A stretch of 44,560 nucleotides of DNA, taken from a virus. Of this stretch, positions 622-43,419 are shown one piece after another. Positions within the stretch are counted from its first letter, which is position 1. The number at the start of each line of letters is the position of its first letter. The notes under the pieces were generated by a model. It saw nothing but the letters and a program-made list of their open reading frames with translations. It was not told the DNA's origin and searched no databases. Both the position numbers and the translations under genes were made by a program. The DNA lies in the IMG/VR virus record IMGVR_UViG_3300026512_000698, positions 1 to 44,560 of that record, one strand, 5' to 3'.

Positions 622-710
622 TTTTTAAAATTCTTTGGAAGTCCGTTGTTTACGAAGAATAATAGTGGTGGGTCCTATGTGACTCGAACACATGACCACT
701 CCGTTATGAG
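622..710 (-). repeat. Attachment site, left copy (tRNA-CAT 3' half)
   Basis: This 89-bp segment recurs at 7526-7614 with one central patch of mismatches (654-664 region) and one single mismatch. Positions 666-710, read on the minus strand, are the 3' half of a tRNA from the anticodon loop CTCATAA through the T arm to the terminal CCA. The matching 5' half (anticodon stem, D arm) is absent at both copies, as expected for att sites of elements that insert into the anticodon loop of a tRNA gene. The intact tRNA should lie further right, outside the window. Confidence 0.85.
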
Positions 711-817
711 GGGGTTTGTCGTTTATGTCTTAAAGTGTATAATACCCTATAATAGCACCTATTCAAGGGTTATATACTTTTTATAATGTTTTTAATGGTA
801 TAATAAATTCCATAAAA

Positions 818-838
818 GTGGTACCCTTGCTGGTACCC
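818..838 (+). promoter_or_regulatory. Candidate integrase arm-type sites, left of element 1
   Basis: Two 9-bp near-direct repeats, GTGGTACCC (818-826) and CTGGTACCC (830-838), with a 12-bp period, sit just before the first integrase gene. The same doublet with the same period occurs at the other end of the element (7479-7499). In the circular form the two doublets would flank the core site, as arm-type sites of tyrosine integrases do. They also overlap the integrase promoter zone and could autoregulate it. Confidence 0.6.
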
Positions 839-853
839 CAAAAGGGAATATGA

Positions 854-1909
854 ATGGCTATAAATCCTAAAGACTATCCTCACAAGATTATTACTGGACT
901 TACATCAAATAATAACTACGATAAATTCTTTTATAGGTTTTTACATAATCAAAAAAGATATAAAGGCATAATTGATTACAGAAATAAATCTTGGAATAAA
1001 AGAGATAGAGTTGATTATGCAAAAGAAGCTTTCTTAGAAGCAAAAAAAGAAGCTAAAAGCACAATTGATACAGATGCAACAGTTGATGATATTGTTAATC
1101 TGTATTTAGAAACGATGCCAGAGAGTAAATACAAGACAAATCGCAAATCTTACTATGACAGAAAAGTTAAGCCCATAATTGGAAAAAAGAAAGCAGAAGA
1201 TATTTTACCAATGCATTTGCAGAAAATTATTAACGATAACATTAAGGATGGAAATAGCCCAGCGACTGCAAAACAAGCAATCGAAGTATTATCCCCTGCT
1301 TTTAACATTGCAAGAGCAAATAGGATTGTAGCTCATAATCCATGCATAGATGTAAAAATCAAAATGCCAAAGACTAAAAAAATTGTAGTTAATGCAACTG
1401 AACGATTAACAAATATCTACAAAGCAATTATAAAGTTATACAAAGACAATCCATATTACAGAGCTTTTTTCTTATTGGCACTTCAAGGTAGAAGAAAAGG
1501 AGAGATATTAAATCTAAGATGGGAGCATATCTCATTTGAATATGATTATTACTTTTTAGCAGACACTAAAAATGATGAAGAACAAAAAGTATATTTACCA
1601 CCAAATGTAAAAGAAGCACTACAAGAATTTCAACAAAAAGAGGGATGGGTATTTGAGTCACCAATCAACAGAGGACAAAGATTATCAGATGCGAAGCGAC
1701 AGACAGCACAACTTAAAAAAGAACTAGGAGACTGGTTTACAATGCACTACACTAGAAATGTAATGGTTTCAGCTATGGCAGAACAGGGAGTAGATGCAAT
1801 TTACATGAGTGGAGCTTTAGGACATAATGACCCTAATACAATTACTAAATATTTAACTATGAACTACTTGCAAGGCTCCAAAATCGCAAGTGATATGATA
1901 CAGAGATGA
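854..1909 (+). CDS. int: Tyrosine integrase of element 1
   Basis: 351 residues, normal length for a phage integrase. It has an N-terminal arm-binding region (1-60), a SAM-like core-binding domain (about 75-170) and a catalytic domain. The catalytic set is visible: Arg214 in QGRRKGE, Lys239 in DTKN, His298 and Arg301 in HYTRN, His324 in LGHND and the nucleophile Tyr333 in TKYLTM. An AAAGGGA ribosome site precedes the ATG. It is closely related to the second integrase at 7765, which fits use of the same tRNA-derived core. It should catalyse insertion and, with an excisionase, excision of the 7 kb element. Confidence 0.95.
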   Translation: MAINPKDYPHKIITGLTSNNNYDKFFYRFLHNQKRYKGIIDYRNKSWNKRDRVDYAKEAFLEAKKEAKSTIDTDATVDDIVNLYLETMPESKYKTNRKSYYDRKVKPIIGKKKAEDILPMHLQKIINDNIKDGNSPATAKQAIEVLSPAFNIARANRIVAHNPCIDVKIKMPKTKKIVVNATERLTNIYKAIIKLYKDNPYYRAFFLLALQGRRKGEILNLRWEHISFEYDYYFLADTKNDEEQKVYLPPNVKEALQEFQQKEGWVFESPINRGQRLSDAKRQTAQLKKELGDWFTMHYTRNVMVSAMAEQGVDAIYMSGALGHNDPNTITKYLTMNYLQGSKIASDMIQR

Positions 1910-1913
1910 TACT

Positions 1914-2684
1914 ATGACATTTTTAGAAGCACTAGAAGATTATACAAGAAGAATACATCATGCACCACTAGAAGAATATCACGAAGAAATATTAACAACT
2001 TTTAAGCTCTTTGGAGAATACTTAAATAAAATACCTTCAGACGGGTTTGGAATCATAGAGGGTTTAGAAGAAGTAGTATTTAATTATTATATTAAAAAAA
2101 GAGATTACGAGGACTTCAACAGAGGCAATAGCTCAATGATGTTTGAGAGTCGAGATGGAAAAACAACTCAAGGAAAGCAAAGAGCAAATTCAGATATAAA
2201 TGTGTTAAAAAAAACAAGAAATTTATTACAACATGTTTCTCACAAAGATTATAGAATTATGCAAGGAGACCAGCAAAATAATAGACAAGAAGAGTTTATT
2301 CCTAAACCTCCTATGGAATGGCAAACAAAAAAGAACGGAACACAAAAATATAAGAAAATTGAAGATTATAGTTTTATAAACTATCAAGATAAAGAAATTG
2401 CATTAAAAGCCTACAATCAGACCATAGCACTTTATGACGAATCTAAAAAGTATCCTTTTGCTGGAGAGCATAGAGTAGAAAAAGATGTATTTAATACTTA
2501 TTGGTTTTTAACAGCATTAATAAATGATTTAGAAGATAAAAAATTTTATCTATTTGAGAAATCACATTACTATAAACCAGAAAAACCATCAAAGGCAGAA
2601 CTAAAAAAAACTTTAACATTTATTCGAAATGCCTTTAACATAAAAGGCTCCTTAGAAGAAAAAGAACTCACAGATAACTTATAA
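1914..2684 (+). CDS. Hypothetical protein downstream of integrase
   Basis: 256 residues, starting 4 nt after the integrase stop, so it is cotranscribed with it. It is charged and soluble with no signal or membrane segment. The N-terminal 60 residues look helical; the middle (about 110-170) is rich in Gln, Lys and Tyr. I do not recognise the family. The operon ends at a perfect 13-bp hairpin. Its place next to int suggests a role in maintenance or regulation of the element, but nothing in the sequence shows it. Confidence 0.75.
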   Translation: MTFLEALEDYTRRIHHAPLEEYHEEILTTFKLFGEYLNKIPSDGFGIIEGLEEVVFNYYIKKRDYEDFNRGNSSMMFESRDGKTTQGKQRANSDINVLKKTRNLLQHVSHKDYRIMQGDQQNNRQEEFIPKPPMEWQTKKNGTQKYKKIEDYSFINYQDKEIALKAYNQTIALYDESKKYPFAGEHRVEKDVFNTYWFLTALINDLEDKKFYLFEKSHYYKPEKPSKAELKKTLTFIRNAFNIKGSLEEKELTDNL

Positions 2685-2690
2685 TTACTA

Positions 2691-2722
2691 CCACTAAAAT
2701 AAAAAAATCTTTATTTTAGTGG
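2691..2722. terminator. Perfect 13-bp hairpin after the int operon
   Basis: Arms 2691-2703 and 2710-2722 are exact inverted repeats (CCACTAAAATAAA and its complement) around a 6-nt loop, 6 nt after the stop codon. The A/T-rich inner stem supplies runs of A and T, but no U-tract follows the stem, so termination efficiency is uncertain. It could work in both directions or be an operator. Confidence 0.45.
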
Positions 2723-2815
2723 ATAGACTATAAAACCCTCAAATAATATACTTCCAACATCTGACGAGATAAATCATAAAACATTGATTAGCTAATCATA
2801 ACAAAGGAACTTGTT

Positions 2816-3010
2816 ATGAACGACAATTTACAAAAGAGGTGGCTCACTCCAAAAGAGCTTTTAACAGAATTTGGATTTTCAATAGATAACCAAGCAAAAA
2901 TGAGAATGGATAAAAGAATACCATTTTCTAAAATTGGAAAGTATATTAGATATGACCGGGAAGAGTTAGACAAATGGTTAAAAGACCATGCAGTAGTAAA
3001 GGCGGCTTAA
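2816..3010 (+). CDS. AlpA/excisionase-type HTH regulator
   Basis: 64 residues. The pattern WLTPKELLTEFG, then KMRMDKRIPFSKIGKYIRYDREELDKWL is the winged helix-turn-helix of the AlpA/Xis (HTH_17) family: recognition helix, a wing and a final helix. Such proteins bend DNA for excision or switch on satellite and prophage genes. An AAAGGA ribosome site lies upstream. A clear homolog with the same layout is at 22366 in the large prophage, so the two elements share this control module. Confidence 0.8.
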   Translation: MNDNLQKRWLTPKELLTEFGFSIDNQAKMRMDKRIPFSKIGKYIRYDREELDKWLKDHAVVKAA

Positions 3011-3011
3011 G

Positions 3012-3275
3012 ATGGCAAAGAAAAAACCAACACATACAACCATCATATTACAAAAGTTTCTAAAAGGCGAAACTATTATTAGTTCAGATGTTTTTGCATC
3101 AAACACTAACCAGTATTTTCCACCTATTAAGGACCAAGGCATTGAGCTAATTGAGTGGAATGACCCAACAGAGGGTAGACACTTAAAGCGTAAACTCAAT
3201 ATGACTGATGAGAACATAGAGAGAGCAAAGAAATATCTCAAAAAACTTACTGGTGTATCAGATGAGCTGGACTAA
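3012..3275 (+). CDS. Small putative DNA-binding protein
   Basis: 87 residues, one base after the preceding stop and so cotranscribed. Residues about 12-60 fit a small winged-helix shape, and the C-terminus (TDENIERAKKYLKKL) is a charged helix. Lysine-rich start. No family recognised with confidence; the DNA-binding guess rests on composition and on neighbours. Confidence 0.6.
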   Translation: MAKKKPTHTTIILQKFLKGETIISSDVFASNTNQYFPPIKDQGIELIEWNDPTEGRHLKRKLNMTDENIERAKKYLKKLTGVSDELD

Positions 3276-3603
3276 AGAAGAACTTGAAAAACTACAAGAT
3301 AAAAACTCTTTTTTAATTCAAAAATCTATCTATGAAGATTTAAAACTTATGAGCGAAGCCGAAACACATTATCTTGTTATGAGAATGTTTGAGTATGTAT
3401 TAAATGGAGAAATCCCAGCTCTTGATGATAAGAAGCACAGGTTTGTTAAAAGTGCTTTTAATCGTTTTAAAATTGCATATGATAGCGACTCAGCAAAGTG
3501 GTTAAAAGCTTGTAAAAAGAAAAGCGAAAATAAAAAAGCAGACTGGCAAAAAAAGAAAACAGATAGACAAGGTAACCCAACTGAACACCCAATATACAAG
3601 TAG
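3262..3603 (+). CDS. DUF6291-like phage/satellite protein
   Basis: 113 residues from the ATG at 3262; a GTG at 3253 would add three residues. The body (NSFLIQKSIYEDLKLMSEAE, then MFEYVLNGEIP and FVKSAFNRFKIAYDSD) resembles the DUF6291 group of small proteins found near phage replication genes. The tail is very Lys-rich, which suggests nucleic-acid binding. It overlaps the end of the previous gene by 14 nt and ends just before the tandem 19-bp repeats, a position compatible with a replication role. Function is inferred only from context. Confidence 0.65.
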   Translation: MSWTKEELEKLQDKNSFLIQKSIYEDLKLMSEAETHYLVMRMFEYVLNGEIPALDDKKHRFVKSAFNRFKIAYDSDSAKWLKACKKKSENKKADWQKKKTDRQGNPTEHPIYK

Positions 3604-3609
3604 TTTTAT

Positions 3610-3666
3610 ACAACTGTATAGAACTCTTACAACTGTATACAGTTCTTACAAATGTTTAGAGTTGTT
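3610..3666. repeat. Three tandem 19-bp repeats (iteron-like)
   Basis: Units at 3610-3628, 3629-3647 and 3648-3666 each begin ACAA-TGT and end in CTT or GTT. Unit 2 contains the perfect 14-bp palindrome AACTGTATACAGTT. They lie in the 210-bp gap between two gene groups of the satellite. Such arrays are either replication-origin iterons or a set of operators for the downstream operon at 3814. Confidence 0.65.
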
Positions 3667-3813
3667 ACAGAGGGGATAGGAAGTGAACGGTAGTGAACTG
3701 AACTATCTTTATCTTATAGGAAAAGAGTTTTATTCTATGAATATAAATATAAACTTACAAACTGTTAATAAGTTTTAATAGAGAGTAAGTAAACACTTTA
3801 AAAAGGACAAAAA

Positions 3814-4281
3814 ATGAAAGATACAAACACAGAGAGCTTAACAGCTAATTTAAGAACTATAACAACACAAGACAAAAGACAAATAATAAACGCATTATGT
3901 TTTAATGAGGGTGGATATGAGCTAACTAACCCAAATACTTTATTAAATCACTTTGGAGTAAGTACAGATGATTTAATGGGAAATATTGAATCTATCCCAA
4001 GTTGGATATTTGGAGCAAATGGCTTTGAAGCAGATATGCAATTAAGAGTAAAAGAGAGTGCTATAAATATGTACTTAGAAAAATACCCACAGTTTGATTT
4101 ACAATTTAGCAAGTCTATACTTCAAGATATTTTAGAAATGGATTTAGAAGACTTAGGACGAGCCAAGAAAGAATATAAAGAGATGTATAAAACAAAAGAT
4201 GCTGGTTATAAATTTATTAAGATGATATTAAAGTATAAAGAAAATATTGAGAAATACGGAGTTGAAAGCGTACAGCAGTAA
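3814..4281 (+). CDS. Hypothetical protein, first gene of satellite operon
   Basis: 155 residues with an AAAAGGA ribosome site. It heads a chain of five genes (3814-5856) linked by 1- to 4-nt overlaps or short gaps. Mostly helical by composition (LGRAKKEYKEMYKTKD, YKENIEKYG), no membrane segment. Not recognised. It lies directly after the tandem 19-bp repeats, so replication or regulation is possible. Confidence 0.7.
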   Translation: MKDTNTESLTANLRTITTQDKRQIINALCFNEGGYELTNPNTLLNHFGVSTDDLMGNIESIPSWIFGANGFEADMQLRVKESAINMYLEKYPQFDLQFSKSILQDILEMDLEDLGRAKKEYKEMYKTKDAGYKFIKMILKYKENIEKYGVESVQQ

Positions 4282-4526
4282 TGACCAATAATGCAAGAGT
4301 GCGACCTTATATGGATACAAGGATAGTTATTTTACTAGAACGATTGAGAGATATACAAGGACTCTCAATCGGTAAGGTCCTAACAATACTCTTAAATGAT
4401 TCTAGCGTGTTTCAAAGTTTGTTAGAAAATTACTATGCAGAAGATGAAACACTAGAAAATATCTTTTTAGGACTATTATCAGAGATCGATAAATGCGACA
4501 ATACAACAAATAAAACAAAAGGATAA
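4281..4526 (+). CDS. Small protein, possible ribbon-helix-helix
   Basis: 81 residues; its ATG overlaps the preceding TAA (TAATG), so translation is coupled. The pattern VRPYMDTRIVILLERLRDIQGLSIGKVLTILL, with a strand followed by two helices, resembles ribbon-helix-helix DNA-binding proteins of plasmids and phages. The acidic C-terminus could mediate oligomerisation. The assignment is tentative. Confidence 0.6.
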   Translation: MTNNARVRPYMDTRIVILLERLRDIQGLSIGKVLTILLNDSSVFQSLLENYYAEDETLENIFLGLLSEIDKCDNTTNKTKG

Positions 4527-4532
4527 AAAGAG

Positions 4533-4853
4533 ATGAATAAGCACTTAATAATGATGGCACTCAAAGAGATACCACAAATAAGTAAAAATCTAAAAAATGG
4601 AAATAGTGATGCAAAATCAGAAATGCGATTAATCATTACTGCATTAAGAAATACACGCCCTCAACAGGGAATAGCAACAGCGACAGCAAGTGCATCATCC
4701 TTATTAAAAGCAGTAGAAGGAAAAAAAATAAGTGAAGATATGGCAAAGACAATTAAACAGACTGCATTATCAGAGTTAGCAAGTCAATTTCGTGATGAAG
4801 CTGATTTTAAAGATGAAAATAAAATAAAACTTTTAGAGGAGTTAATCAAATGA
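4533..4853 (+). CDS. Hypothetical helical protein, paralog of the next gene
   Basis: 106 residues with an AAAAGGA ribosome site. All-helical composition, Ala/Ser-rich centre (ATATASASSLLKAVEG). Both its start (ALKEIPQISKNLK) and its end (FKDENKIKLLEELIK) resemble those of the next gene (TLQKIPSMIKEFDK and DDTKVKILEKYLK). The two may descend from one gene and interact. No known family. Confidence 0.65.
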   Translation: MNKHLIMMALKEIPQISKNLKNGNSDAKSEMRLIITALRNTRPQQGIATATASASSLLKAVEGKKISEDMAKTIKQTALSELASQFRDEADFKDENKIKLLEELIK

Positions 4854-5281
4854 AACAGCACAGAGAAATAATCACGACACTTCAAAAGATACCAAGCATG
4901 ATAAAAGAGTTTGATAAGCTTGAGAAGTCAATTGCTAATACAGATACGAGAAAAAAGCAAATATCAAAAGAAAATTATCAACTAGAGATACTAAATTTTG
5001 AAGCTACCAACGCACCTGATAATGCTCTTATTAGAAAGATTACTGCAACAGGCAACCATCTTGAATTAAGTAAGCCTGACTTTAAACCAGCATATCATAG
5101 TTTAAATGAAGTTCAAAGAGTAATTAATGTAATTGGTTTAGATAAAGCACCTAGCAGAATAAAACAGCAACTTGAACTTATGGAACTCTTAGAAGTTAAA
5201 AGCTTGTTTCAAACAGCAACAGACTTTTTAGACGATACAAAAGTAAAAATACTTGAAAAATATTTAAAAGGAAAGAAATAA
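4850..5281 (+). CDS. Hypothetical helical protein
   Basis: 143 residues. Its ATGA overlaps the previous stop, and a GAGGAG ribosome site lies inside the previous gene, so it is coupled. It is helical and charged, with termini like those of the 106-residue neighbour. No membrane segment or known motif. Its TAATG end couples it to the next gene. Confidence 0.65.
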   Translation: MKQHREIITTLQKIPSMIKEFDKLEKSIANTDTRKKQISKENYQLEILNFEATNAPDNALIRKITATGNHLELSKPDFKPAYHSLNEVQRVINVIGLDKAPSRIKQQLELMELLEVKSLFQTATDFLDDTKVKILEKYLKGKK

Positions 5282-5856
5282 TGAATTACAGACAAGCAGG
5301 AATATACACAGATAGAAGCACAATAGAACTTAAAACAGAGTTTGAGGATATTATAGAAGCTATGGGAGAGATAGGACAAAACAAAGAGATTACTCATGCC
5401 CTACTTGATTTTTGGTTACATGGAAGTGTACCGACAAATAATGATATCTATTTACTACAGCTACATGTTCAAAAGCTATTAAAAGATAATGGAATACCAG
5501 CAGAACATATAAAAAACTCTTTAGGTGGAAATGCACCATTAGATAAATACACACTATTCAAGAACGCTTGTTTAAATTTTATTGGAGAAGATTTAACACC
5601 GGACTTTAAAACATTAGTTATTGAACCCCTGATTAAGCATTATGTTACGCCAAGTGAAGCAAGTAAAAAACATAAACTAAAGCAGTTAGAAGTAGCACGA
5701 AAGACTATCAAGGGGTTATCTCCTAGTATTGATAAGTCTATTGCAGAACTAAGCAAAATAGAGCCTTTCATATTGGCAGGAACTTTTGAAGAAACAATCT
5801 TGATAAAGTTGCAACAGATAGAACACTTAATAGTCAATCAAATAGCCACTTCTTAG
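5281..5856 (+). CDS. Hypothetical protein, last gene of satellite operon
   Basis: 191 residues, coupled by TAATG to the preceding gene. Helical, with a Lys-rich middle (ASKKHKLKQLEVARKTIKG) and a hydrophobic C-terminal third. Not recognised. A 6-bp hairpin spans its stop codon. As part of the satellite-specific block it is a candidate for helper interference or capsid remodelling, but only by position. Confidence 0.65.
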   Translation: MNYRQAGIYTDRSTIELKTEFEDIIEAMGEIGQNKEITHALLDFWLHGSVPTNNDIYLLQLHVQKLLKDNGIPAEHIKNSLGGNAPLDKYTLFKNACLNFIGEDLTPDFKTLVIEPLIKHYVTPSEASKKHKLKQLEVARKTIKGLSPSIDKSIAELSKIEPFILAGTFEETILIKLQQIEHLIVNQIATS

Positions 5857-5862
5857 GTGGCT
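5844..5862. terminator. Weak hairpin over the operon's stop codon
   Basis: AGCCAC (5844-5849) and GTGGCT (5857-5862) pair around a 7-nt loop that holds the stop codon. No strong U-tract follows, so it may only attenuate transcription between the unknown operon and the terminase gene. Confidence 0.35.
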
Positions 5863-6003
5863 TATCTAATAGGGAGGGCGGATTGAGAAACTGACAGATT
5901 TTTTCTTTTTGTTAATCGACCCCCAGTCACGAAAAAATAAGAACGATTTTTCAAAATATTTGAAACAGTAACATATTTAATCACATATAAGGAGATAATA
6001 CAA

Positions 6004-6606
6004 ATGCACACGCAAAAAGAAGCCTTGATAGTCTTGAATTGTAGCAAGATGACTCTATCAAGATATGTAAAAGATGGTAAATTAGAGCGAACAAAAAAAG
6101 GTCGCAAAACTTATTACGATGAACACGAAGTAGCAACACTTGTTAAGCAGATAGAGGACAATAAAAGTAAATATCGACCTGATGTTCCAAAGAGAGAAAA
6201 AAAGCGTATAGAGCTACCAAATGAAGTTAAAGAGTTATGCAAAAATATTTCAAGTACAGAAAATTTAAGCAAAGTAGGTTTTGAGTATCTTGCAGAAACA
6301 ACAGAGTATTTAAAAAAATCTAATTTGTATCAAGATGCAGATAAAGAAATTTTAGTGCAATATGCTTTAAGCGTTCAAAACTTTTATAAATATCTCTACT
6401 TATCAAATCAAAACGAATGTATCTTTAAAAGCGATACAGGAGCGATAACACTACATCCTTTTTTTAAAGTAATGCAACACCACGAAAAACAGATGCTTTG
6501 TTACATGGATAGGTTAGGACTTAATCCACTAGCAAGACAAAAACTCAACATAGAAGCAGAAAAAGAACTTACAGAGATGGGAAAATTCTTACTTGGTATT
6601 GAATAA
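6004..6606 (+). CDS. terS: Terminase small subunit, P27 family, with N-terminal HTH
   Basis: 200 residues with an AAGGAGA ribosome site. Residues 1-55 form a MerR-like helix-turn-helix (EALIVLNCSKMTLSRYVKDG, then Tyr-Tyr-Asp-Glu-His-Glu-Val wing). The C-terminal part carries the P27 TerS signature: HPFFKVMQHHEKQM followed by LGLNPLARQKLNI. TerS proteins recognise the packaging site and recruit the large subunit. No large subunit lies in this element, so the protein would work with a helper phage's TerL, as TerS of SaPI/PICI satellites does. Family call is fairly sure; the helper is unknown. Confidence 0.75.
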   Translation: MHTQKEALIVLNCSKMTLSRYVKDGKLERTKKGRKTYYDEHEVATLVKQIEDNKSKYRPDVPKREKKRIELPNEVKELCKNISSTENLSKVGFEYLAETTEYLKKSNLYQDADKEILVQYALSVQNFYKYLYLSNQNECIFKSDTGAITLHPFFKVMQHHEKQMLCYMDRLGLNPLARQKLNIEAEKELTEMGKFLLGIE

Positions 6607-6611
6607 ATTCT

Positions 6612-6878
6612 TTAACTATCTTCCATTATAGGCAAAGCAATTTTTGCAAAGTCTTGATGTGCTTTATCGCAAATATTATCTTTTAGTAAATTTCTTAGTT
6701 TTATTCCATTATTGCAACACACCCATAGTTTCAACCATGATTTAACCCAATAAGGAATCTCACGATTTTTAGTATTCCAATTATTTACAACTTCACTTGA
6801 TGTACCAAGTAATTCAGCAAATTTCTTTTTAGTTAGCCCAGCTTCTTTTAATAGCCCTTTAAATTCTTCATTATTCAA
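6612..6878 (-). CDS. XRE-type repressor of the satellite
   Basis: 88 residues on the minus strand, divergent from the gene at 7062. Residues 1-40 show the classic XRE helix-turn-helix: FKGLLKEAGLTKKKFAELLG, then SSEVVNNWNTKNREIP. The segment PYWVKSWLKLW is shared with the partial regulator at the right edge of the window. It probably represses the satellite from palindromic sites in the 6879-7061 intergenic region. Confidence 0.8.
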   Translation of the reverse strand: MNNEEFKGLLKEAGLTKKKFAELLGTSSEVVNNWNTKNREIPYWVKSWLKLWVCCNNGIKLRNLLKDNICDKAHQDFAKIALPIMEDS

Positions 6879-6902
6879 ATATTTTTCCTTAAAAGTAATT
6901 AT

Positions 6903-6938
6903 ATGATTATATCATAATAATATTAATAATCATATGAT
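6903..6938. promoter_or_regulatory. Operator-like palindromes between divergent satellite genes
   Basis: ATGAT-TAT-ATCAT (6903-6915) and ATCATATGAT (6929-6938) are palindromes sharing the half-site ATCAT/ATGAT; further ATGATTAT copies follow near 6974. They lie between the repressor (start 6878) and the gene at 7062, whose -10 candidate TAAAAT is near 7016. The likely ligand is the XRE protein at 6612. Confidence 0.5.
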
Positions 6939-7061
6939 GAGTCCTTTAAGTGATAATTAATAATTAAATGATTATACTTTTAAAAGTTAAACTAATTATT
7001 TGATTAGTTATTAGCTAAAATAAAGATATGCAATATAAGTTGCAGTCAAAAAGGATATAAA

Positions 7062-7457
7062 ATGAGATTATCAACAAGTGGAAGAATAGAGAAATATGAG
7101 AACTTATCGGAGCAAATAGATGCCGCTTTTTATGGAACTATGGACAGAGTACATGGCTTAGAAGTCGTATCTAAACTATTATCACATGTAGCACTACATG
7201 CTGAGTGCCAGGATGACGAAGAATTAAGCAGTAGTGACCTACACTCTTTGTCTGAGCTAATGAGACTTAATTTAAAGCAAGTGTATGTAAATGTTTCAGA
7301 AATACGTCAATCCTTGCAAGATAATGAAGAAGTAGAGAATATTTTGAAAGAATCAGAACAAAGTGAAATAATTGAAGAATATTCACGAAGATCACCAACA
7401 GCACAAGAAAGCAATAGAGATGATAAAAAGTTTTTTGATAGTTATTTTAAAGATTAA
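7062..7457 (+). CDS. Hypothetical acidic protein, divergent from repressor
   Basis: 131 residues with an AAAAAGGA ribosome site. Helical and acidic, ending in a low-complexity charged tail (SPTAQESNRDDKKFFDSYF). It stands alone between the repressor and the right attachment site. Not recognised. The position suggests an accessory or regulatory product expressed when the repressor is lifted, or a lysogeny gene. Confidence 0.65.
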   Translation: MRLSTSGRIEKYENLSEQIDAAFYGTMDRVHGLEVVSKLLSHVALHAECQDDEELSSSDLHSLSELMRLNLKQVYVNVSEIRQSLQDNEEVENILKESEQSEIIEEYSRRSPTAQESNRDDKKFFDSYFKD

Positions 7458-7478
7458 AAGTTAAGTATTTTTATAAAA

Positions 7479-7499
7479 GTGGTACCCCAAGTGGTACCC
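7479..7499 (+). promoter_or_regulatory. Candidate integrase arm-type sites, right end of element 1
   Basis: Two exact GTGGTACCC repeats at 7479-7487 and 7491-7499, period 12 bp, close to the right attachment repeat. They match the doublet before the first integrase, so element 1 carries the same sites at both ends. Confidence 0.6.
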
Positions 7500-7525
7500 T
7501 AATGAAAACTTAAACGATAAATTGA

Positions 7526-7614
7526 TTTTTAAAATTCTTTGGAAGTACGTTGTTTACGAAGTTTGTAAGTGGTGGGTCCTATGTGACTCGAACACATGAC
7601 CACTCCGTTATGAG
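7526..7614 (-). repeat. Attachment site shared by elements 1 and 2
   Basis: This is the second copy of the 89-bp repeat. Positions 7570-7614 on the minus strand are the tRNA 3' half from the CTCATAA loop to the CCA end. The bases beyond the loop differ from those at the first copy and cannot complete the anticodon stem. This copy is the right end of element 1 and the left end of element 2, which shows tandem insertion at one site. Confidence 0.85.
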
Positions 7615-7764: not shown

Positions 7765-8838
7765 ATGGCAATCAACACAAAAGATTACCCAAATAAAGTT
7801 GAAAACAATTTATGGTCGAACAAGAACTATACTATATTTTTCTATACATTTACATTTGAAAAGAAAAAATATAGAGGCTTAATAGACTTAGCAGATAAAA
7901 TCAAGTGGAATAAAAAAGATAAAATCTTCACAGCTCGTGCTGAACTTATGAAGATTAAAAATGATAAAAAAGAAAATATACTTAATGATGGTATTACTCT
8001 TGATAAGTACATGGATAGTTTCTTTGACTTGCGACCAGATACAAACACCACTAAAAAACTAAAGAGTCATTACAAAAGATATATTAGTGATATATGTGGA
8101 ATGAAAAAACTTGTAGATATTCGTCAGCTTCATATAAAAAGGAGTATTAAGTATCAAGAAGATGTAGGTTTAGCAGCTCGTACTATAAAACAAACTTTAG
8201 AGGTCTTATCTCCAGCATTTAAAAGTGCTATTGCAAATCGTGTTATATCTTTTAATCCTCTTGATGGAATATCTATAAAGCTTCCAAAAACTAAGAAAAT
8301 AGTAAGTGAAGCATCTAAAGAGTTAATAAAAATTCATAAAGCCATATATGAAGAGTTTGCTACTGATCCTTTTTATTTAGCATTCTTCTTATTTGCTTTG
8401 CAAGGTAGAAGAAAGAGTGAGATATTTACTCTCAAGTGGGAAGATGTGAGTATTGACAATTCTTACTACATACTTAGAAACACTAAAAATAATGAAGAGC
8501 AAAAAATATTCTTGTCTGATATAATGAAAAAACAACTTAGCCAAATACCAAAAGTTAGCGAGTGGGTTTTTACATCAAGAAGAACAGGCTCTCATATAGT
8601 AGATGTTAGAAAAAGGGTTGGTAAGTTAAAAACTAGATTAAAAGATGATAGCTTTGGTATACACTACTTAAGAAATGTTATTGTTTCTGCTATGGCGGAG
8701 CAAGGCTTAGAGTCTATGCACTTAAGTGGAGCATTAGGACACAATGACCCAAATACCATAAAAAAATATCTTACTATGAACTATTTAAAATCTAGTGAAA
8801 TTGCTAGTGGGGTTATTGATACTATTGTTGGTAAATAG
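7765..8838 (+). CDS. int: Tyrosine integrase of element 2
   Basis: 357 residues, homologous to the integrase at 854 along its whole length. Catalytic residues are seen in QGRRKSE (Arg), NTKNNEE (Lys), HYLRNV (His, Arg), LGHNDPN (His) and KKYLTM (Tyr). An AGGGA ribosome site is present. It lies directly inside the shared attachment site, pointing into the element. It should insert the large prophage at the same tRNA core used by the satellite. Confidence 0.95.
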   Translation: MAINTKDYPNKVENNLWSNKNYTIFFYTFTFEKKKYRGLIDLADKIKWNKKDKIFTARAELMKIKNDKKENILNDGITLDKYMDSFFDLRPDTNTTKKLKSHYKRYISDICGMKKLVDIRQLHIKRSIKYQEDVGLAARTIKQTLEVLSPAFKSAIANRVISFNPLDGISIKLPKTKKIVSEASKELIKIHKAIYEEFATDPFYLAFFLFALQGRRKSEIFTLKWEDVSIDNSYYILRNTKNNEEQKIFLSDIMKKQLSQIPKVSEWVFTSRRTGSHIVDVRKRVGKLKTRLKDDSFGIHYLRNVIVSAMAEQGLESMHLSGALGHNDPNTIKKYLTMNYLKSSEIASGVIDTIVGK

Positions 8839-9172: not shown

Positions 9173-9533
9173 TTTTAATTACCCATTCCCCTGCACAAAA
9201 CAAGTCGATAATATCTCCATTCCCATCAAATTGACGAGTTGTACTTTTATCAATAGAATAACCACGACTATCTTCATAAATCTTAGATAAATAAAGATAG
9301 TTACTTATTTTATCACTTCTTGTTTCTATGTGAAAATTATTATCATATATCCACTTTTTTACTCTGTCTGCCATCTCATATTTATTGATAGCATTAGTAT
9401 ATGCCATACCACCCTCATACCATTTTGGATTAAAAACTATCATATTAGGTTGGTCTATTGTTTCATGAACATCTTTAACCTCTTTACCTAAAACTACACT
9501 CATCAATTCATTGCTTATTATTAAATTATTCAT
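9165..9533 (-). CDS. Hypothetical phage protein
   Basis: 122 residues from the ATG at 9533, which overlaps the methyltransferase stop; the open frame runs 75 nt further upstream but only inside that gene. Residues 45-70 (AINKYEMADRVKKWIYDNNF) and GEWVIKNV at the end resemble small proteins often seen in phage early regions. Function is unknown. Confidence 0.65.
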   Translation of the reverse strand: MNNLIISNELMSVVLGKEVKDVHETIDQPNMIVFNPKWYEGGMAYTNAINKYEMADRVKKWIYDNNFHIETRSDKISNYLYLSKIYEDSRGYSIDKSTTRQFDGNGDIIDLFCAGEWVIKNV

Positions 9534-10326
9534 CAAATACTCCTCGTATTCTATCATTCGCAATATCTGCAAAAGGTCTATTAGTTTTTTCACAAACTCC
9601 ATCATCAAAGCCTATAAAATTCCTTTTTGTTTTAATACATGCAACTGCAGTAGTTCCACTACCAATACAATTATCAAGAACAATGTCATTTTTATTTGTG
9701 TATGTTTTTATAAGGTACTCAAACAAAGCTACAGGCTTTTGTGTTGGATGAAGTCTTGATTGTTGTTTATCTGATTTGAAAGTCAAAACACTTCTAGGGT
9801 ATCGTTCATCACTATCGTATGTTGTTCTTTTGAAATTTTTCCCATAGTTACTAGATTTAATACATTTTTCTTGGCTCTCTTTTTTAGATACCTTTCTAGC
9901 ACCTTTGGTTTTGATAGGGTTATATTGTGGTAGTTTTTTATAGAAAACAAGTATAGCCTCGTGAGGTATTTCATCTTTTGAAAATACTAAAATATTTTCA
10001 TGTGCTTTCATCGGCATTTTACTAGCATTTAGATGTCCTGATGCACTTGTTTTTTCCCATATCCATTCATATCTAAACATCTTCAAGTTTGAACATGCGA
10101 GTACCTTATCAAATGGAGCTTGAGCAAATAGCAAAATCGCACCTTTATCTTTTATAATCCTTTCATATTGTTCCCACAATTCAGGAAGAGGAATAATACT
10201 ATCCCACCTATTTTTAGTTGTTCCATATGGCATATCACAAAGAATAAGGTCTATTGACTTATCTTTTATATCAGACATACCTATTAAACATTCTTTATTT
10301 TGGATTGTATTTATTAAGTTATTCAT
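9526..10326 (-). CDS. DNA adenine/cytosine-N4 methyltransferase
   Basis: 266 residues, beta-class layout. Motif IV is LILCDMPYGTT (about 28-38), a variant of the D/N/S-P-P-Y catalytic motif. The AdoMet-binding motif near the C-terminus is DNCIGSGTTAVAC, followed by FIGFDD. HPTQKP is the usual conserved stretch between them. It methylates the exocyclic amino group of A or C in DNA. No restriction partner is nearby, so it is an orphan phage methylase, probably protecting phage DNA or affecting regulation. Confidence 0.9.
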   Translation of the reverse strand: MNNLINTIQNKECLIGMSDIKDKSIDLILCDMPYGTTKNRWDSIIPLPELWEQYERIIKDKGAILLFAQAPFDKVLACSNLKMFRYEWIWEKTSASGHLNASKMPMKAHENILVFSKDEIPHEAILVFYKKLPQYNPIKTKGARKVSKKESQEKCIKSSNYGKNFKRTTYDSDERYPRSVLTFKSDKQQSRLHPTQKPVALFEYLIKTYTNKNDIVLDNCIGSGTTAVACIKTKRNFIGFDDGVCEKTNRPFADIANDRIRGVFDE

Positions 10327-10498
10327 CTTCCATCTCCCTAAACTTTTTATATCTAGCCCATTGTGCAGCTAATTGTCTTTTTACATCCCAAACTATCATT
10401 AAATCACTATATACTCTTCTTGTCTCTACGAAAGCTACAACAAGAGGGATAAGTAGAAAAGATAGCCAATACTGAAAATGGATAGATATTCTTTTCAT
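10319..10498 (-). CDS. Small membrane protein
   Basis: 59 residues from the ATG that overlaps the previous stop (TAATG). One transmembrane segment (YWLSFLLIPLVVAFVE, about 9-24) is followed by a charged cytoplasmic-type tail. It overlaps the methyltransferase start by 8 nt. Unknown function. Confidence 0.55.
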   Translation of the reverse strand: MKRISIHFQYWLSFLLIPLVVAFVETRRVYSDLMIVWDVKRQLAAQWARYKKFREMEDE

Positions 10499-10728
10499 TA
10501 TATTTTGTACCAAATACTTCTTAGAAATTTAATATCTTCTACCGTTAGCTCCGTTCTTTCTTCATACATCTTCATTGTAGTTCCATCTGCTTTAGAGCAT
10601 AGAAAATTCAAACCATCATACTTATTTTCATGAGCTTCTATCTCTTCTAATTTTTCTGATAGATAAGGCTTGTCGTGTGCAAACCTTTCTTTATATATCT
10701 CTATGAGAGTTCTTGTAATGTAGTTCAT
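10498..10728 (-). CDS. Hypothetical protein
   Basis: 76 residues, coupled to the exonuclease gene by a 4-nt overlap. Charged and helical, with no signal or membrane segment. The end (LTVEDIKFLRSIWY) is a helix typical of many small phage proteins. Not recognised. Confidence 0.6.
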   Translation of the reverse strand: MNYITRTLIEIYKERFAHDKPYLSEKLEEIEAHENKYDGLNFLCSKADGTTMKMYEERTELTVEDIKFLRSIWYKI

Positions 10729-11300
10729 TTTATAAAATCCTCAACCAATACTTGATGTAGTATCTTTGTGGCTTGAATATCTGATAGTGCTTGATGAGCA
10801 TTTATATCTATCTCAAAGTGTTCACATAGAGTTTCTAGTTTATTGTTTTCAGTTTCAAAAAGGTTTAAATATCTAAAGTGTCTTACCAGTTCTAATACAT
10901 CTAGTTTTTGATAGCCAAAAAAACTATTAAAATCACTACTTTGTGGAGTATCATTAAACCACTCTTTTATGAACTCATAATCAAACTCAACATTGAAACC
11001 AGCCATTTGAAACTTACTTTTATTAAGCCTATTTACATATTTATGTAAGATGTTTTTAAATGCTATTTGTTGAAATGATGAACTTGGATAAGATGCTAAT
11101 AACTCTTCGTTTATATCCATCTTCTCCCGAACATATTTACTTATATATTTTTCATTTTCATAAGTTGCGGTATTTATCTGAAGAAAACCCTCTTCTACTA
11201 TCTGACCATCTATCTCTATTAAAAAACCAACTTCTCTAAGTCCATGTATTTTAGTATCTAGCCCTGTTGTTTCCGTATCTATCCATATTATTTTTTTCAT
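10725..11300 (-). CDS. DnaQ-like 3'-5' exonuclease
   Basis: 191 residues. The DEDDh exonuclease signature is complete: Exo I DTETTGLD (residues 8-15), Exo II around GFNVEFDYEF, and Exo III INAHQALSDIQAT with the catalytic His and Asp. This is the fold of the proofreading subunit of DNA polymerase III and RNase T. No polymerase is in the window, so the enzyme would assist host polymerase or trim DNA or RNA ends. It lies one nucleotide after the preceding gene. Confidence 0.9.
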   Translation of the reverse strand: MKKIIWIDTETTGLDTKIHGLREVGFLIEIDGQIVEEGFLQINTATYENEKYISKYVREKMDINEELLASYPSSSFQQIAFKNILHKYVNRLNKSKFQMAGFNVEFDYEFIKEWFNDTPQSSDFNSFFGYQKLDVLELVRHFRYLNLFETENNKLETLCEHFEIDINAHQALSDIQATKILHQVLVEDFIK

Positions 11301-23983: not shown

Positions 23984-24847
23984 ATGAAAATTAAAAAGAT
24001 AAATGCACATACAGTTAAACTAGATGGACAAGAGTTATCACTAAATGATAGTGAGAAAATAGTTAAAAAAGCTGGTACTGACTACTATATCCATAAAAAT
24101 AAAAAACAAGATGAGTTTATTATTTCAGAAAATAAAAAACTTAAAATGTATAAACTAGTTGGTGGTTTTCACTATGGTCTTATTCCTGAAGAGTTTACAA
24201 CTATAAACAATATTAGCAAAAAATCCTCTAAAAAAATAGCTGGTATAAATCACTACTCTATCTGGAGTAAAAAACATAGACCACTATGTGAACCAGAAGG
24301 GATGGTATTTATTCCTAAACTAAAGATTTGGATAGATATATATCTGCTAAATGCAGACCATAAAGTAAATGGCTCATCAAAAGCTAATGCGATTATAGCT
24401 AGTGGAGATAATTACAATGGTAGAAAAATACCAGTAGATGAAGAAGACTTAAAAGGTAATGTTGTAGATGCCATTGCTTCACATCATAATAAAAGACTAC
24501 TGACTCAAAAAGAGTTTAGAAAAGCTATGTATGGTGTAAAAGAAGGTTTGAGTGCTGAGGACTTAGATGATGGAACAACTAAACATATAAAAGACTTTGT
24601 ATCAAGATACGGGATAGAACAAGCAACTGGTGTTCAATGGATATGGAGTAAAGATTTATATAATTCTAGTGATAAGTTAAGGGTGCTTTTGGGTGGCGCT
24701 CGTGGCAGTGGCGTGCACGCAGGTTCTCGTGCCTCGGATTGGAGCTACTATGTTTGGAACTCGTACTGGGACATTGGTGTGCGTCTGTCATGTGACATGA
24801 AACTTAAAAATGAAGCGAAAGCGAATTTAAAGACAAAGGATAAATAA
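23984..24847 (+). CDS. DGR variable protein 1 (C-type-lectin-like domain)
   Basis: 287 residues, homologous through most of its length to the last 300 residues of the fibre at 27556 (shared AGTDYY, GGFHYGL, YGIEQATGVQWIW). The variable segment (about residues 233-270: LLGGARGSGVHAGSRASDW ... WDIGVRLSCD) is the end of a CLec/formylglycine-enzyme-like fold used by DGR target proteins. It has no fibre stalk. It lies between helicase and SSB-like genes, about 5 kb from the retroelement, and joins the next gene by TAATG. Likely a displayed binding protein; the partner is unknown. Confidence 0.85.
   Translation: MKIKKINAHTVKLDGQELSLNDSEKIVKKAGTDYYIHKNKKQDEFIISENKKLKMYKLVGGFHYGLIPEEFTTINNISKKSSKKIAGINHYSIWSKKHRPLCEPEGMVFIPKLKIWIDIYLLNADHKVNGSSKANAIIASGDNYNGRKIPVDEEDLKGNVVDAIASHHNKRLLTQKEFRKAMYGVKEGLSAEDLDDGTTKHIKDFVSRYGIEQATGVQWIWSKDLYNSSDKLRVLLGGARGSGVHAGSRASDWSYYVWNSYWDIGVRLSCDMKLKNEAKANLKTKDK
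24682..24794 (+). repeat. DGR variable repeat 1 (VR1)
   Basis: 113 bp aligned without gaps to the template repeat (29834-29946). Ten differences are at template adenines (A to T, G or C). One, near the 3' end (TCG to TCA), is not. Eight of the nine template Asn codons have changed (to Ala, Ser, His, Asp, Ser, Tyr, Tyr, Asp). Confidence 0.95.
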
Positions 24848-25407
24848 TGGCAAACATAGGAATAGTTTATAGAGATAGTTATAAAAAAGAGGGTAAAGAT
24901 ATACCTATAATCATGTTAGATATTCGTACTATTAGTATTAGAAAAAAGTTTACTATCAGTGTAAATAAAAATAAATATCCTGATGGTGTAGTTAATGATA
25001 ATATAGTACAGGGTAAAGAAGACTATCCTGATTATCATATTTGGTGCAATATGGCAAATCGTGGAGAGACTGGAAGAAGTGAAATAGTTGGAAGTATTAA
25101 AGATGCTGTTGCTGAGGGTAGCGGACTCAAATATAAAAGATGTAAAATATTTGACCCTTTTATCTCTGAAAAAAACATATATTTTACTTTATTTAGTGTT
25201 GATGAAGATAAAAAAAGAGATGCTTCTCATGTTTATAATGTTGTGGCTCAACCATATCAAAAACCACAAAGTGAGTATAACAATACTCAAAATGAACAAA
25301 CAGCACAGCCTAGCTATGATGGACAAAATATTCCAACTACATACGAAACAGTAGATAAAAACAGTGTACCAAGTATAGATGTTGATGAAGATGAGATTCC
25401 ATTTTAG
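24847..25407 (+). CDS. SSB-like single-stranded DNA-binding protein
   Basis: 186 residues. The N-terminal part could form an OB fold but is divergent. A Gln/Asn/Pro-rich linker (about 135-170) leads to the tip DEDEIPF, which is the classic acidic SSB C-terminus that recruits replication proteins. It would protect single strands during phage replication. It is coupled by TAATG to the variable protein gene upstream. Confidence 0.75.
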   Translation: MANIGIVYRDSYKKEGKDIPIIMLDIRTISIRKKFTISVNKNKYPDGVVNDNIVQGKEDYPDYHIWCNMANRGETGRSEIVGSIKDAVAEGSGLKYKRCKIFDPFISEKNIYFTLFSVDEDKKRDASHVYNVVAQPYQKPQSEYNNTQNEQTAQPSYDGQNIPTTYETVDKNSVPSIDVDEDEIPF

Positions 25408-25417
25408 GTTTTAACAA

Positions 25418-26971
25418 ATGAATGAAATACAAAAAGCTTTAGCTGCTAAAAAAGCAGAACCTATACGACATGCTTTATGTCGTAAGGATTTACTTCATTA
25501 TGGTCGTTATATATTTGAAAAAGAATATGAAACTCCACTTCTTGAAGCATGGTATCACGAGCTACTATGTAATGCATTGATGAAAGTAGCTCACGGAGAA
25601 GTCACTAGACTTATTATAAACATACCACCAGCCTATGGAAAAACAGAGTTTGCAGTAAGACTTTTTGTGTCTTGGTATCTTGGTAATTTTCCAAAAAAAA
25701 GAGTTATTTATACATCATATAGTGATGACTTAGCTACTAAAACACCTGCCGAAGTTAAAGAACTTATCGTATCTCCATCTTATAAAAAAGTATTTAATAA
25801 TATTAGTCTAGGTAGAAAAACAGCAGATAAAGAGTGGTATTTAGAGTCTAAGGGTGGTATGTTTTCTACTACTGTTGGTGGAGGTATTACAGGTTTTCAC
25901 GGGAATATAGTGATAATAGATGATCCAATGAAAGCGATAGAGAAAAACTCTAAAGCTACAAGAGACTTAGTTACTAATTTTTATAAAGGTTCTATTACTT
26001 CAAGACTTAGAAAAGATGACCCTAACTCTGCCATAATAGTTATTATGCAAAGGCTACATGAAGATGACTTAGTTGGGTATCTACTTGAAGAGGAGCAAGA
26101 TATATGGACTCATATAAATCTAACAGGGATAAACCCTAAAGAAACTATATATGATTTTTTTGATTATTACTACAAGCGTGAAGCGTATGAGCCTTTGAAC
26201 CCTCACTTTGAAACAGTGCAAAAGCTGGAACAACAAAAAAAAGTAATGAAAGAAGATTGGTATTCTCAATATATGCAAGACCCTAGAACTATTGAGACTG
26301 GGTATGTAAGTGATAGTGATTTTGTTAGTATAGCTTCGTGGGAACTTAGTGAGGATAATAAATGTATCAGCATTGACCCTGCTCAATCAACAAAACAAAC
26401 AAGTGATAATAGAGCCATATCTTTAGTTGGAGTAGCACTTTCCCCCGAGAAAATAGAGCTATTTAATGTTTACGGAACATGGTTTGGAAAATGGGGTAAT
26501 GAAGAATTTATAGAACAAATCATACAAGTAATGATTGAAAATAGTGGTGTACCTGTATTTATGGAAAGCAGTGGTGGTGGTATTATTACAGAACAATATC
26601 TCAAAAAAGAGATACAAAAAGTAAATTACAAACTTAAAACTGAGGGTAAATCTATCCTTACCAATAGAGTTACCTTATTTAATCCAAAAACAAAAATAAG
26701 TAAAAATCAAAAAATTGACCAAAGTATTACATGTCTGCAAAATCATCAAATTCGCTTTGTTGTTGGGGGTCATGGTCAAGAACAAGTAAAAAAAGAGTAT
26801 CTAGGGTTTCATCCAGAAAAAGATTCTAAAGAAGATGACTGTATGGAAACTATTGCTAATGTAGTTGTAAATAATTTTGTATCTCCAAAAACTAAACCCA
26901 AAGATAAAACTATCAACAATCCAAGCGTTATGAGAAATTTTACTCAAAGAAGAATTGGTTGGAGAATTTAA
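25418..26971 (+). CDS. terL: Terminase large subunit
   Basis: 517 residues. ATPase domain: Walker A NIPPAYGKTEF (about 68-78), Walker B IVIIDDPMK (about 164-172), coupling motif after SAIIVIMQRLHEDDL. The RNase H-like nuclease domain starts at ISIDPAQST with Asp near 320. It cuts and pumps DNA into the prohead. No adjacent small subunit is recognised; the expected slot upstream holds SSB-like and DGR target genes. The 31-bp late-promoter element begins at its stop codon. Confidence 0.93.
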   Translation: MNEIQKALAAKKAEPIRHALCRKDLLHYGRYIFEKEYETPLLEAWYHELLCNALMKVAHGEVTRLIINIPPAYGKTEFAVRLFVSWYLGNFPKKRVIYTSYSDDLATKTPAEVKELIVSPSYKKVFNNISLGRKTADKEWYLESKGGMFSTTVGGGITGFHGNIVIIDDPMKAIEKNSKATRDLVTNFYKGSITSRLRKDDPNSAIIVIMQRLHEDDLVGYLLEEEQDIWTHINLTGINPKETIYDFFDYYYKREAYEPLNPHFETVQKLEQQKKVMKEDWYSQYMQDPRTIETGYVSDSDFVSIASWELSEDNKCISIDPAQSTKQTSDNRAISLVGVALSPEKIELFNVYGTWFGKWGNEEFIEQIIQVMIENSGVPVFMESSGGGIITEQYLKKEIQKVNYKLKTEGKSILTNRVTLFNPKTKISKNQKIDQSITCLQNHQIRFVVGGHGQEQVKKEYLGFHPEKDSKEDDCMETIANVVVNNFVSPKTKPKDKTINNPSVMRNFTQRRIGWRI

Positions 26972-27018
26972 AACTACCAAATAGACATACCACTTAACAC
27001 TTTTTAAAAAGCTAAAAT
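26968..27018 (+). promoter_or_regulatory. Structural-operon promoter 1 with 15-bp box
   Basis: A 31-bp sequence (26968-26998) is identical to 35243-35273. It ends in GACATACCACTTAAC (26984-26998); exactly 14 nt later comes the -10 hexamer TAAAAT (27013-27018). The box replaces the normal -35. It drives the 27047 gene and the DGR/fibre unit. Confidence 0.7.
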
Positions 27019-29472: not shown

Positions 29473-29808
29473 ATGAATGATTCTAAGAATTTGATTATTA
29501 TTGAAAAGTATGAAAGCTTTTTAAATTACATCTACCCTCATTTACAACATATACCGAGGAAACATGGAATTTTAAAAGAAAGAATTATTTTAATAGTTTT
29601 TGAACAAACAGAATTATTTTACAAAGCTATAAAATCTAACCAAAAAAGTAAACTATATGAAGCAGATGCAAATTTAGCAAGTATTAGATACTACCTTAGA
29701 TTTTTAGCTGATGAAAAAAGAAAACTTATAAGTCAAAAGCAACACAATACTGCTGGTGTAAAACTAGCAGAAGTTGGTAAGATTTTAAATAGTTGGATAA
29801 AAAAATGA
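29473..29808 (+). CDS. avd: Avd, DGR accessory variability determinant
   Basis: 111 residues, all helical, with the sequence character of Avd four-helix bundles: IIEKYESFLNYIYPHL, IPRKHGILKERIILIVFEQT, a basic helix and RYYLRFLADEKRKLI, ending GVKLAEVGKILNSWI. Avd forms a positively charged pentameric barrel that binds the reverse transcriptase and template RNA. It sits between VR2 and the template repeat, the standard place. Confidence 0.88.
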   Translation: MNDSKNLIIIEKYESFLNYIYPHLQHIPRKHGILKERIILIVFEQTELFYKAIKSNQKSKLYEADANLASIRYYLRFLADEKRKLISQKQHNTAGVKLAEVGKILNSWIKK

Positions 29809-29825
29809 GTTTATGGGCGAGTAAG

Positions 29826-29946
29826 ATTACAGCGGTGCTATTGGGTGGCAATCGTGGCAATGGCGTGAACGCAGGTTCTCGTGCCTCGAATTGGAACAAC
29901 TATGTTTGGAACTCGAACTGGAACATTGGTGTGCGTCTGTCGTGTG
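29826..29946 (+). repeat. DGR template repeat (TR)
   Basis: This 121-bp segment is the adenine-rich donor for VR1 and VR2. It has nine AAC or AAT codons in the reading frame of the target proteins, set where the binding surface varies. It lies 17 nt after avd and about 170 nt before the likely start of the reverse transcriptase. Its 3' flank (after GTGTG) differs from the flanks of both variable repeats, which marks it as donor rather than acceptor. Confidence 0.96.
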
Positions 29947-35236: not shown

Positions 35237-35242
35237 AAAAAC

Positions 35243-43407: not shown

Positions 43408-43419
43408 GCTTATTTATCC

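Follow-up and report, generated by a model that had tools for sequence, protein, structure and literature searches.

A P27-type small terminase with an N-terminal helix-turn-helix, adjoining a cos-like site, in a small phage satellite in which no large terminase subunit was found

The gene at positions 6004-6606 (+ strand) of the window, that is, of the whole 44,560-nt stretch of viral DNA analysed here, encodes a terminase small subunit (TerS) in which an N-terminal helix-turn-helix (HTH) is joined to a P27-type core. It lies in an integrated satellite element with defined borders and no large terminase subunit (TerL), is preceded by a phage-like site, and has counterparts in three close and one distant relative of the element. 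We think it probable that the protein is the specificity subunit of the satellite's own packaging-start module, which would rely on an HK97-type helper phage for TerL and shells. The TerS profiles, the phage-like junction and the relatives without TerL make such a module the best explanation. The TerS and the satellite family are real, and the core idea of a first-pass annotation, a small terminase carried by a satellite, holds, whereas its proposals that the HTH is the satellite's own and that the neighbouring phage is the partner fail.

The TerS protein

The protein starts at an ATG and is 200 aa long. Profile searches against small-terminase families, the check proposed in the first-pass annotation, matched PF05119 (Terminase_4) on residues 100-188 (E 1.1e-11, 45.4 bits, Pfam cut-off 24.7), the PHROGs small-terminase family phrog_83 (E 3.7e-13) and a further small-terminase family, phrog_9452, which spans residues 4-196 and so covers the HTH and P27 parts jointly (E 4.7e-8). 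The P27 model of NCBIfam, TIGR01558, scored 44.9 bits, slightly below its cut-off of 45.6. HTH_17 (PF12728) was matched on residues 8-47 (E 3.5e-6, 27.6 bits, cut-off 27). The P27 motif letters quoted in that annotation are present in the ORF, which is the sole PF05119 match of the whole record, and no clear second TerS, a finding that would argue against the reading, turned up in the same satellite family. The gene is thus confirmed as encoding a P27-type TerS with an N-terminal HTH.

An AlphaFold2 model, calculated from an input of four sequences, has a mean pLDDT of 74, and within it the N-terminal part adopts a well predicted HTH fold. Convincing Foldseek matches were obtained for the HTH part only, which resembles BldC and the Xis of mycobacteriophage Pukovnik with a probability of 0.96-0.99 but E-values of only 0.4-0.7. 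Given these poor E-values, the reading of the HTH fold leans on profile and model together. A PDB sequence search with the P27 core gave no match.

Homologues in phages

Among viral contigs the search with TerS found one relative, L002, with 55% identity across residues 1-196; two further entries were dropped from the counts, L003 because it duplicates the L002 contig and L001 because it is part of the window. L002 is an HK97-type phage with the order HNH, short noncoding stretch, TerS, TerL, portal, protease and capsid, in which all gene names except TerL were assigned by reading the ORFs; its TerL is of the PF03354/PF20441 kind. Used as a query, this TerL retrieved 137 loci. Among the best 80 of the 137, which were used for the analysis, a full-length HTH-P27 TerS is carried by L002 and L004 (54-56% identical) and by L006 (37%); the TerS of L005 is a weaker match, and the others carry the P27 part only. 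In the siphoviruses L002, L004 and L006, the terS gene is flanked by HNH on one side and a PF03354-type TerL on the other. The Campylobacter CJIE4 phages are related to this HK97-type set by TerL (39%).

A TerS profile matched 23 of 397 Campylobacteria genomes, many of the weak matches covering the HTH only. Wide regions were examined for six of the 23 (L131-L136); an L002-like TerL lies directly beside TerS, with HNH nearby, in five, and the sixth (G367) has no TerL. The five regions and L002 point to a PF03354/PF20441-type TerL as the usual partner of this TerS family. Since phages and Campylobacteria regions alike carry the HTH-bearing TerS next to TerL, the HTH belongs to the ordinary make-up of the family. 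The HTH singled out in the first-pass annotation is therefore present, but it is not a satellite-specific addition, a possibility ruled out by the full-length, HTH-bearing homologues in L002, L004 and L006. INPHARED yielded no phage with a closely similar TerS; one weak TerS match appeared there at E up to 10, and the satellite DNA had no useful match. A further query, A1, found L002 only among viral contigs and nothing useful among genome contigs.

Borders and gene content of the satellite

The element extends from about 664 to 7614. Exact 47-nt repeats at both ends (664-710 and 7568-7614, both - strand) set its size at 6,904 bp, and the right copy is also the left att of the next prophage. 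The reverse complement of the repeat is the 3' part of a tRNA-Met gene with a CAT anticodon and matches the 3' end of the tRNA-Met(CAT) of a related satellite's genome (G556, below) at 40 of 47 positions. No complete tRNA was found in the window, so the intact tRNA gene should stand rightwards, past the next prophage. Just inside the borders lie two copies of a further repeat (801-841 and 7462-7502, both +) with GTGGTACCC, which occurs in the window at 818, 7479 and 7491 only, i.e. at both element ends. Within the window GTGGACACC occurs only ahead of the prophage integrase. We infer that these sequences are arm-type sites of the satellite and prophage integrases, respectively.

The gene series, on the + strand, begins with an integrase (854-1909; PF00589, E 2.5e-15; phrog_1), followed directly by orf2 (1914-2684), which has no family match in Pfam and PHROGs scans, and by an AlpA/excisionase-like HTH protein (2816-3010; PF12728, E 1e-6; phrog_66, E 3.5e-7). 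Then come a small protein, orf4 (3012-3275), with a homologue in the G471 satellite (phmmer 3.5e-5), a DUF6291 protein (3253-3603; PF19808, E 2.4e-14) and orf6 (3814-4281; no Pfam or PHROGs family match). The satellite backbone consists of orf7 (4281-4526; 60-65% identity in G471 and G513), orf8 (4533-4853; phmmer 3.9e-44 in G471), orf9 (4850-5281; 49-55% identity in G471, G513 and G556) and orf10 (5281-5856; 59-61% identity in the same three). Beyond terS, at the far end of the element, a small HTH repressor-like protein is encoded on the - strand (6612-6878; phrog_8898, E 3.5e-15; phrog_4779, E 9.8e-7), followed by orf13 (7062-7457, +; no family match in Pfam or PHROGs). The only candidate for a replication gene in the window satellite is that for the DUF6291 protein, which occupies the place of a 223-aa gene product of G471 and G513 that we label Rep-like, its Pfam matches being below cut-off.

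No phage structural or lytic genes were found in the element with Pfam, PHROGs or L002 queries, and the TerL of L002 and L004 and the portal and capsid of L002 had no match anywhere in the window. The element is thus satellite-like, with integrase, att repeats and an AlpA-like gene and with no TerL, portal or capsid gene, as had been proposed. The usual phage setting of a P27 TerS, beside TerL, is not found in it. With PADLOC, 10 satellite proteins yielded weak matches only, and a defence cargo is therefore not claimed.

Relatives of the integrase occur in named genomes (n=16), including Sulfurimonas (the best, 76%), Sulfurospirillum, Sulfuricurvum and Arcobacter, and on this basis the satellite host is probably a sulfur-oxidising bacterium. 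TerS was found in 0/16 of these integrase-bearing genomes. Searches of viral contigs with the satellite orf2, the G471 TerS and the G471 orf10 returned nothing useful.

Related satellites in other genomes

In 228 genomes of the family of the Sulfurimonas MAG G001, the satellite TerS had nine matches, strong in G471, G513 and G556 and middling in G452. The last was rejected as a satellite, being a prophage in which HNH, TerS and TerL genes follow one another. A profile of orf9 found exactly G471, G513 and G556 (3/228), and four of 397 genomes in a wider draw from the class; orf10, searched against 151 genomes of the G001 family, had two matches, one of them strong (G471). TerS shows 57-72% identity in G471, G513 and G556, and in each it is encoded after orf9-orf10 and without TerL.

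In G471 the order is tRNA-Arg(CCT), integrase (of another type), AlpA-like, Rep-like, orf7-orf10, HNH, site, TerS and then chromosomal genes, and the satellite measures 6,765 bp between 15-nt repeats formed by the tRNA-Arg 3' end. The G513 satellite, at tRNA-Ser(GGA), has the same order without HNH; its 20-nt repeats, from the tRNA-Ser 3' end, enclose 6,786 bp. In both, the ORF after int overlaps int by 4 nt. G556 has the same right part, with tRNA-Met(CAT) at the right end, on a contig that begins inside orf9. The G471 HNH gene (positions 9636-9983 of locus L129; PF01844, E 3e-6) encodes a protein 58% identical to the HNH protein of phage L004; the satellites of the window, G513 and G556 have no HNH gene in this position.

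Neither L002-type nor window-type TerL, portal or capsid genes turned up in the G471, G513 and G556 regions. A PF03354 TerL was present in 0/3 of these genomes and in 3/14 controls, in assemblies whose completeness is not stated, and none of the three belongs to the nine genomes, out of 228, in which an L002-like TerL was found. A distant relative in G367 (locus L133, 7901-14036) occupies a tmRNA gene site, with 6.1 kb between 25-nt repeats, and carries an integrase, a Rep-like gene and two adjacent TerS-like genes, one with HTH and P27 parts (10090-10845) and one with P27 only (9519-10025). TerL was not found in this element.

Relatives of the backbone genes were also seen elsewhere. An element at tRNA-Met in G077 (locus L164, 5505-17001) has relatives of orf7, orf9 and orf10. 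Its orf7 and orf9 relatives flank two ORFs that by eye resemble a tail tube and a tape measure, the latter of 1,007 aa. A TerS of the present family was not seen in it, and the element may be a satellite equipped with tail parts or a prophage remnant. In G421 (L130), relatives of orf7 and orf10 stand beside a different small-terminase-like ORF (315-653, by eye), which indicates that these backbone genes occur in other phage-like elements too.

The cos-like site ahead of terS

Orf10 and terS are separated by a noncoding gap of 147 nt that resembles the HNH-terS junctions of phages. The boxes in common are AGGG..CGG.TT, about 32-42 bases on AGTCAC, then TTTCAAAA and TAACA repeats. By this likeness the stretch at 5869-5987 (+) is read as a putative cos site. 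It includes a perfect 17-bp inverted repeat, TTTCAAAATATTTGAAA (5949-5965), which is a candidate TerS-binding site, and two TAACA-type repeats 12 bp apart (5969-5985, +; the second copy here is TCACA), which may have a similar role. The TAACA-type pair is present in all four satellites and in L002 and L004, and absent from L006. An alignment of the site covers the window, the three other satellites and two phages; in it G471 shares with the window AGTCACGAA, the identical inverted repeat and GTAACAT.

A regular expression for the first boxes matched a single place in the window, 5875, and elsewhere among 98 loci HNH-terS junctions only (L002, L004, L006, L007 and L009), against a background of one match per 500 simulated windows. 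Its spacer of 33-38 had missed the window and was enlarged to 32-42 afterwards, which makes a profile built from the five phage junctions alone the cleaner test. Searched over 25 loci, the phage-only profile placed terS junctions of satellites or prophage loci at all of ranks 1-6: G513 (E 4e-7), the window (0.012), G556 (0.05) and the prophage loci L136, L135 and L140. Within the window the 5869-5987 region was the top match, the next having an E of 22. The profile misses the G471 site (E 13), and sequence conservation directly ahead of terS could in part reflect expression signals. The first-pass annotation was right about the gene and its HTH but overlooked both this site and the relatives with the same arrangement.

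Apparent exchange of TerS, and its two parts

The relatedness of TerS does not follow that of the backbone gene orf9. Between G471 and G556, orf9 is 89% identical as against 59% for TerS, whereas between the window and G471 the values are 55% for orf9 and 72% for TerS. This disagreement makes the TerS module look exchanged rather than decaying. In a tree of whole TerS (7 rows), the four satellites were grouped in 4% of bootstraps, and the window and G471 joined phages L002 and L004 (93/95), a result that argues against a single, simple lineage of satellite TerS.

The two parts of the protein behave differently. Identities for the HTH and the core were compared for 8 of 12 aligned TerS. In residues 1-50 identity among the four satellites is 80-88%, as against 66-78% with phages L002 and L004, whereas in the core (residues 91-182) the window TerS has 58-62% identity with L002 and L004 and 50-52% with G513 and G556; the cores of both the window and G471 are nearer to L002/L004 than to G513/G556. 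In separate trees (7 TerS; 60 columns for the HTH and 98 for the core), the satellites came together in 78% of bootstraps for the N-terminal part and in 2% for the core, neither value being strong. Our tentative suggestion, which we regard as somewhat doubtful, is that a satellite-specific HTH reads the satellite cos and that the P27 core is swapped to match the TerL of the current helper. If true, a constant address tag would be carried on a changeable docking part, and packaging would be independent of the cos specificity of the helper.

Proposed packaging mechanism

The helper would be an HK97-type phage of the HNH, P27-TerS and PF03354-TerL kind, whose infection or induction would lift the repression of the satellite. 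Excision would be carried out by Int and the AlpA-like protein, and the satellite would then replicate to concatemers and express TerS. The HTH of TerS may bind the repeats and the inverted repeat within the cos-like site, and its P27 core may form a ring and recruit the helper TerL. The HNH nuclease would be that of the helper here, and the satellite's own copy in the G471 relative. Helper TerL and HNH would cut, and the motor would fill the helper shell with satellite concatemers. The satellite is about one fifth of the size of the 34-36-kb phage contigs (those of L006, L007 and L002 measure 33.6-36.1 kb), and a five-copy concatemer (34.5 kb) would suit a full-size shell, which is arithmetic only.

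The neighbouring prophage and other explanations

The first-pass annotation had noted a prophage next to the satellite, with a TerL at 25418 and no recognised TerS, and had suggested that the satellite protein may redirect the packaging of that phage or of another helper; in the first case it would supply the missing small subunit of this P22-like phage. The prophage is indeed there, with an integrase (7765-8838, +; PF00589) 46% identical to that of the satellite, a TerL (25418-26971, +; phrog_38, E 2e-81), a P22_portal portal and a Phage_capsid_3 capsid; it probably extends past the right edge of the window, which lacks right-end copies of its GTGGACACC. In favour of a partnership, PHROGs matched no small terminase in 27 different prophage ORFs, a set that takes in TerL and part of the small ORFs. 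The ORF at 24847-25407 was rejected as the prophage TerS, having no PHROGs match; by eye, from its acidic DEDEIPF tail, it looks like an SSB. Prophage and satellite also stand in tandem at the same 47-nt tRNA repeat, although the common site and the related integrases explain their neighbourhood and not a cooperation. The prophage TerL is of another family than the PF03354/PF20441-type TerL that adjoins homologous TerS, which makes it an unlikely partner, and it was rejected as such; it goes with a portal and a capsid of the P22_portal and Phage_capsid_3 families, the site ahead of terS is that of HNH-cos phages, and the 25418 TerL was unmatched in 3/3 other satellite hosts in a search without a positive control. 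We therefore regard redirection of the adjacent prophage as highly improbable.

Chance survival of terS in a decayed HNH-cos prophage would agree with the lack, in the window element, of the HNH gene found in this position in G471. This origin is improbable, however: three elements share their gene order, have att repeats and barely differ in length (6.77-6.90 kb); all four satellites retain TerS and its preceding site; and the divergent relatedness of orf9 and TerS speaks for exchange rather than decay. We give similarly little credence to TerS acting mainly against the helper, by titrating TerL or occupying the helper cos, with packaging secondary. The combination of a satellite-like HTH with a phage-like core would fit a competitor, and phage-inducible chromosomal islands (PICIs) interfere through the packaging proteins Rpp and Ppi, according to extracts of PMC6739421. 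Interference alone, however, needs no cos-like site, and one adjoins terS in 4/4 satellites.

Comparison with known satellites

The packaging-start module proposed here, a cos-like site and TerS with an optional HNH and no TerL, would be an intermediate packaging kit. On one side of it stand the cos SaPIs, with a borrowed TerS, and on the other the capsid-forming satellites, which carry the full set themselves. Most known phage satellites come from Gram-positive cocci, Enterobacterales or Vibrionaceae. No description of a satellite in Campylobacterota or Sulfurimonas was found in open-licence PubMed Central literature, and a cos-like site with TerS (and HNH) but no TerL in 6-7-kb Campylobacterota elements is undescribed in the open-licence literature searched. 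The family offers a natural test of DNA choice by TerS and of its docking to a foreign TerL. With the HK97-type phages L002, L004 and L006 the satellite has in common the whole-length TerS and the HNH-terS junction site, but it is without their TerL, portal, protease and capsid genes. The cfPICIs have their own capsid genes and TerL, whereas neither was found in the element with L002/L004 queries. A phage-encoded HNH nuclease is reportedly involved in cos SaPI packaging, in work from 2014 by Quiles-Puchalt.

That a satellite TerS can direct packaging is established for SaPIs (extracts of PMC6092414 and PMC5052747), and satellites with TerS are known among pac SaPIs and some Gram-negative PICIs (extracts of PMC6092414, PMC6739421 and PMC5052747). 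Like pac SaPIs of the SaPIbov1 type and PICIs with terS, as described in these extracts, the present element is an integrated satellite with its own TerS, which would direct a helper TerL. It differs in that its TerS is of the HTH-P27 kind with a cos-like site, in its size (6.9 kb versus about 15 kb in the extracts), in having no divergent regulator pair by int, and in an att site common with a prophage. Extracts of the literature describe EcCICFT073 as carrying cos and using the helper's TerS modified by Rpp (PMC6739421), and SaPIbov5 as keeping only a 3' piece of terS (PMC5052747). Cos packaging would be in common with these, the cos-like site being recognised here by sequence alone, whereas the present satellite supplies TerS too, and in G471 also HNH.

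The PICMI of Vibrionaceae, in the extracts of PMC10803314, are likewise small, with int followed by a gene that overlaps or adjoins it and then by alpA, and orf2 (1914-2684) resembles the PICMI iolg/icg in position. The same extracts describe PICMI115 as 6,110 bp long, integrated next to fis, without terS, apparently using headful packaging, and packed as an eight-copy concatemer in full-size shells. In contrast, the DUF3987/DUF5906 primase was not found here (Pfam), and the site is tRNA-Met, not fis.

Measured against the PICI features listed in the extracts of PMC6092414, the element has an integrase and att repeats and no phage structural or lytic genes. The att site of Gram-positive PICIs is described there as never occupied by prophages, whereas here it holds a tandem prophage at the same 47-nt repeat; PICIs are typically around 15 kb, as against 6,904 bp; and in place of divergent regulators with int on one side and xis and replication genes on the other, int, the AlpA-like gene and those that follow are all on the + strand. 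With a shared att site and a different size and regulator layout, the element is not a PICI by that list, though it would work like one.

Other features of the neighbouring prophage

The prophage contains a diversity-generating retroelement, with three copies of a 121-nt repeat (24674-24794, 29314-29434 and 29826-29946; 86-93% to the reference copy), an Avd gene (29473-29808; phrog_3206, E 1.6e-26) and a reverse transcriptase (29793-31130; PF00078), the start of whose ORF is overlapped by one repeat copy. Target-like ORFs ending in the other copies lie at 23984-24847 (a tail protein family) and 27556-29454. A 41-nt repeat (93%) is found at the TerL end (26965-27005) and directly after the prophage ORF 34166-35236 (35240-35280), and a 63-nt direct repeat (89%) lies by the right edge of the window (43410-43472 and 44447-44509).
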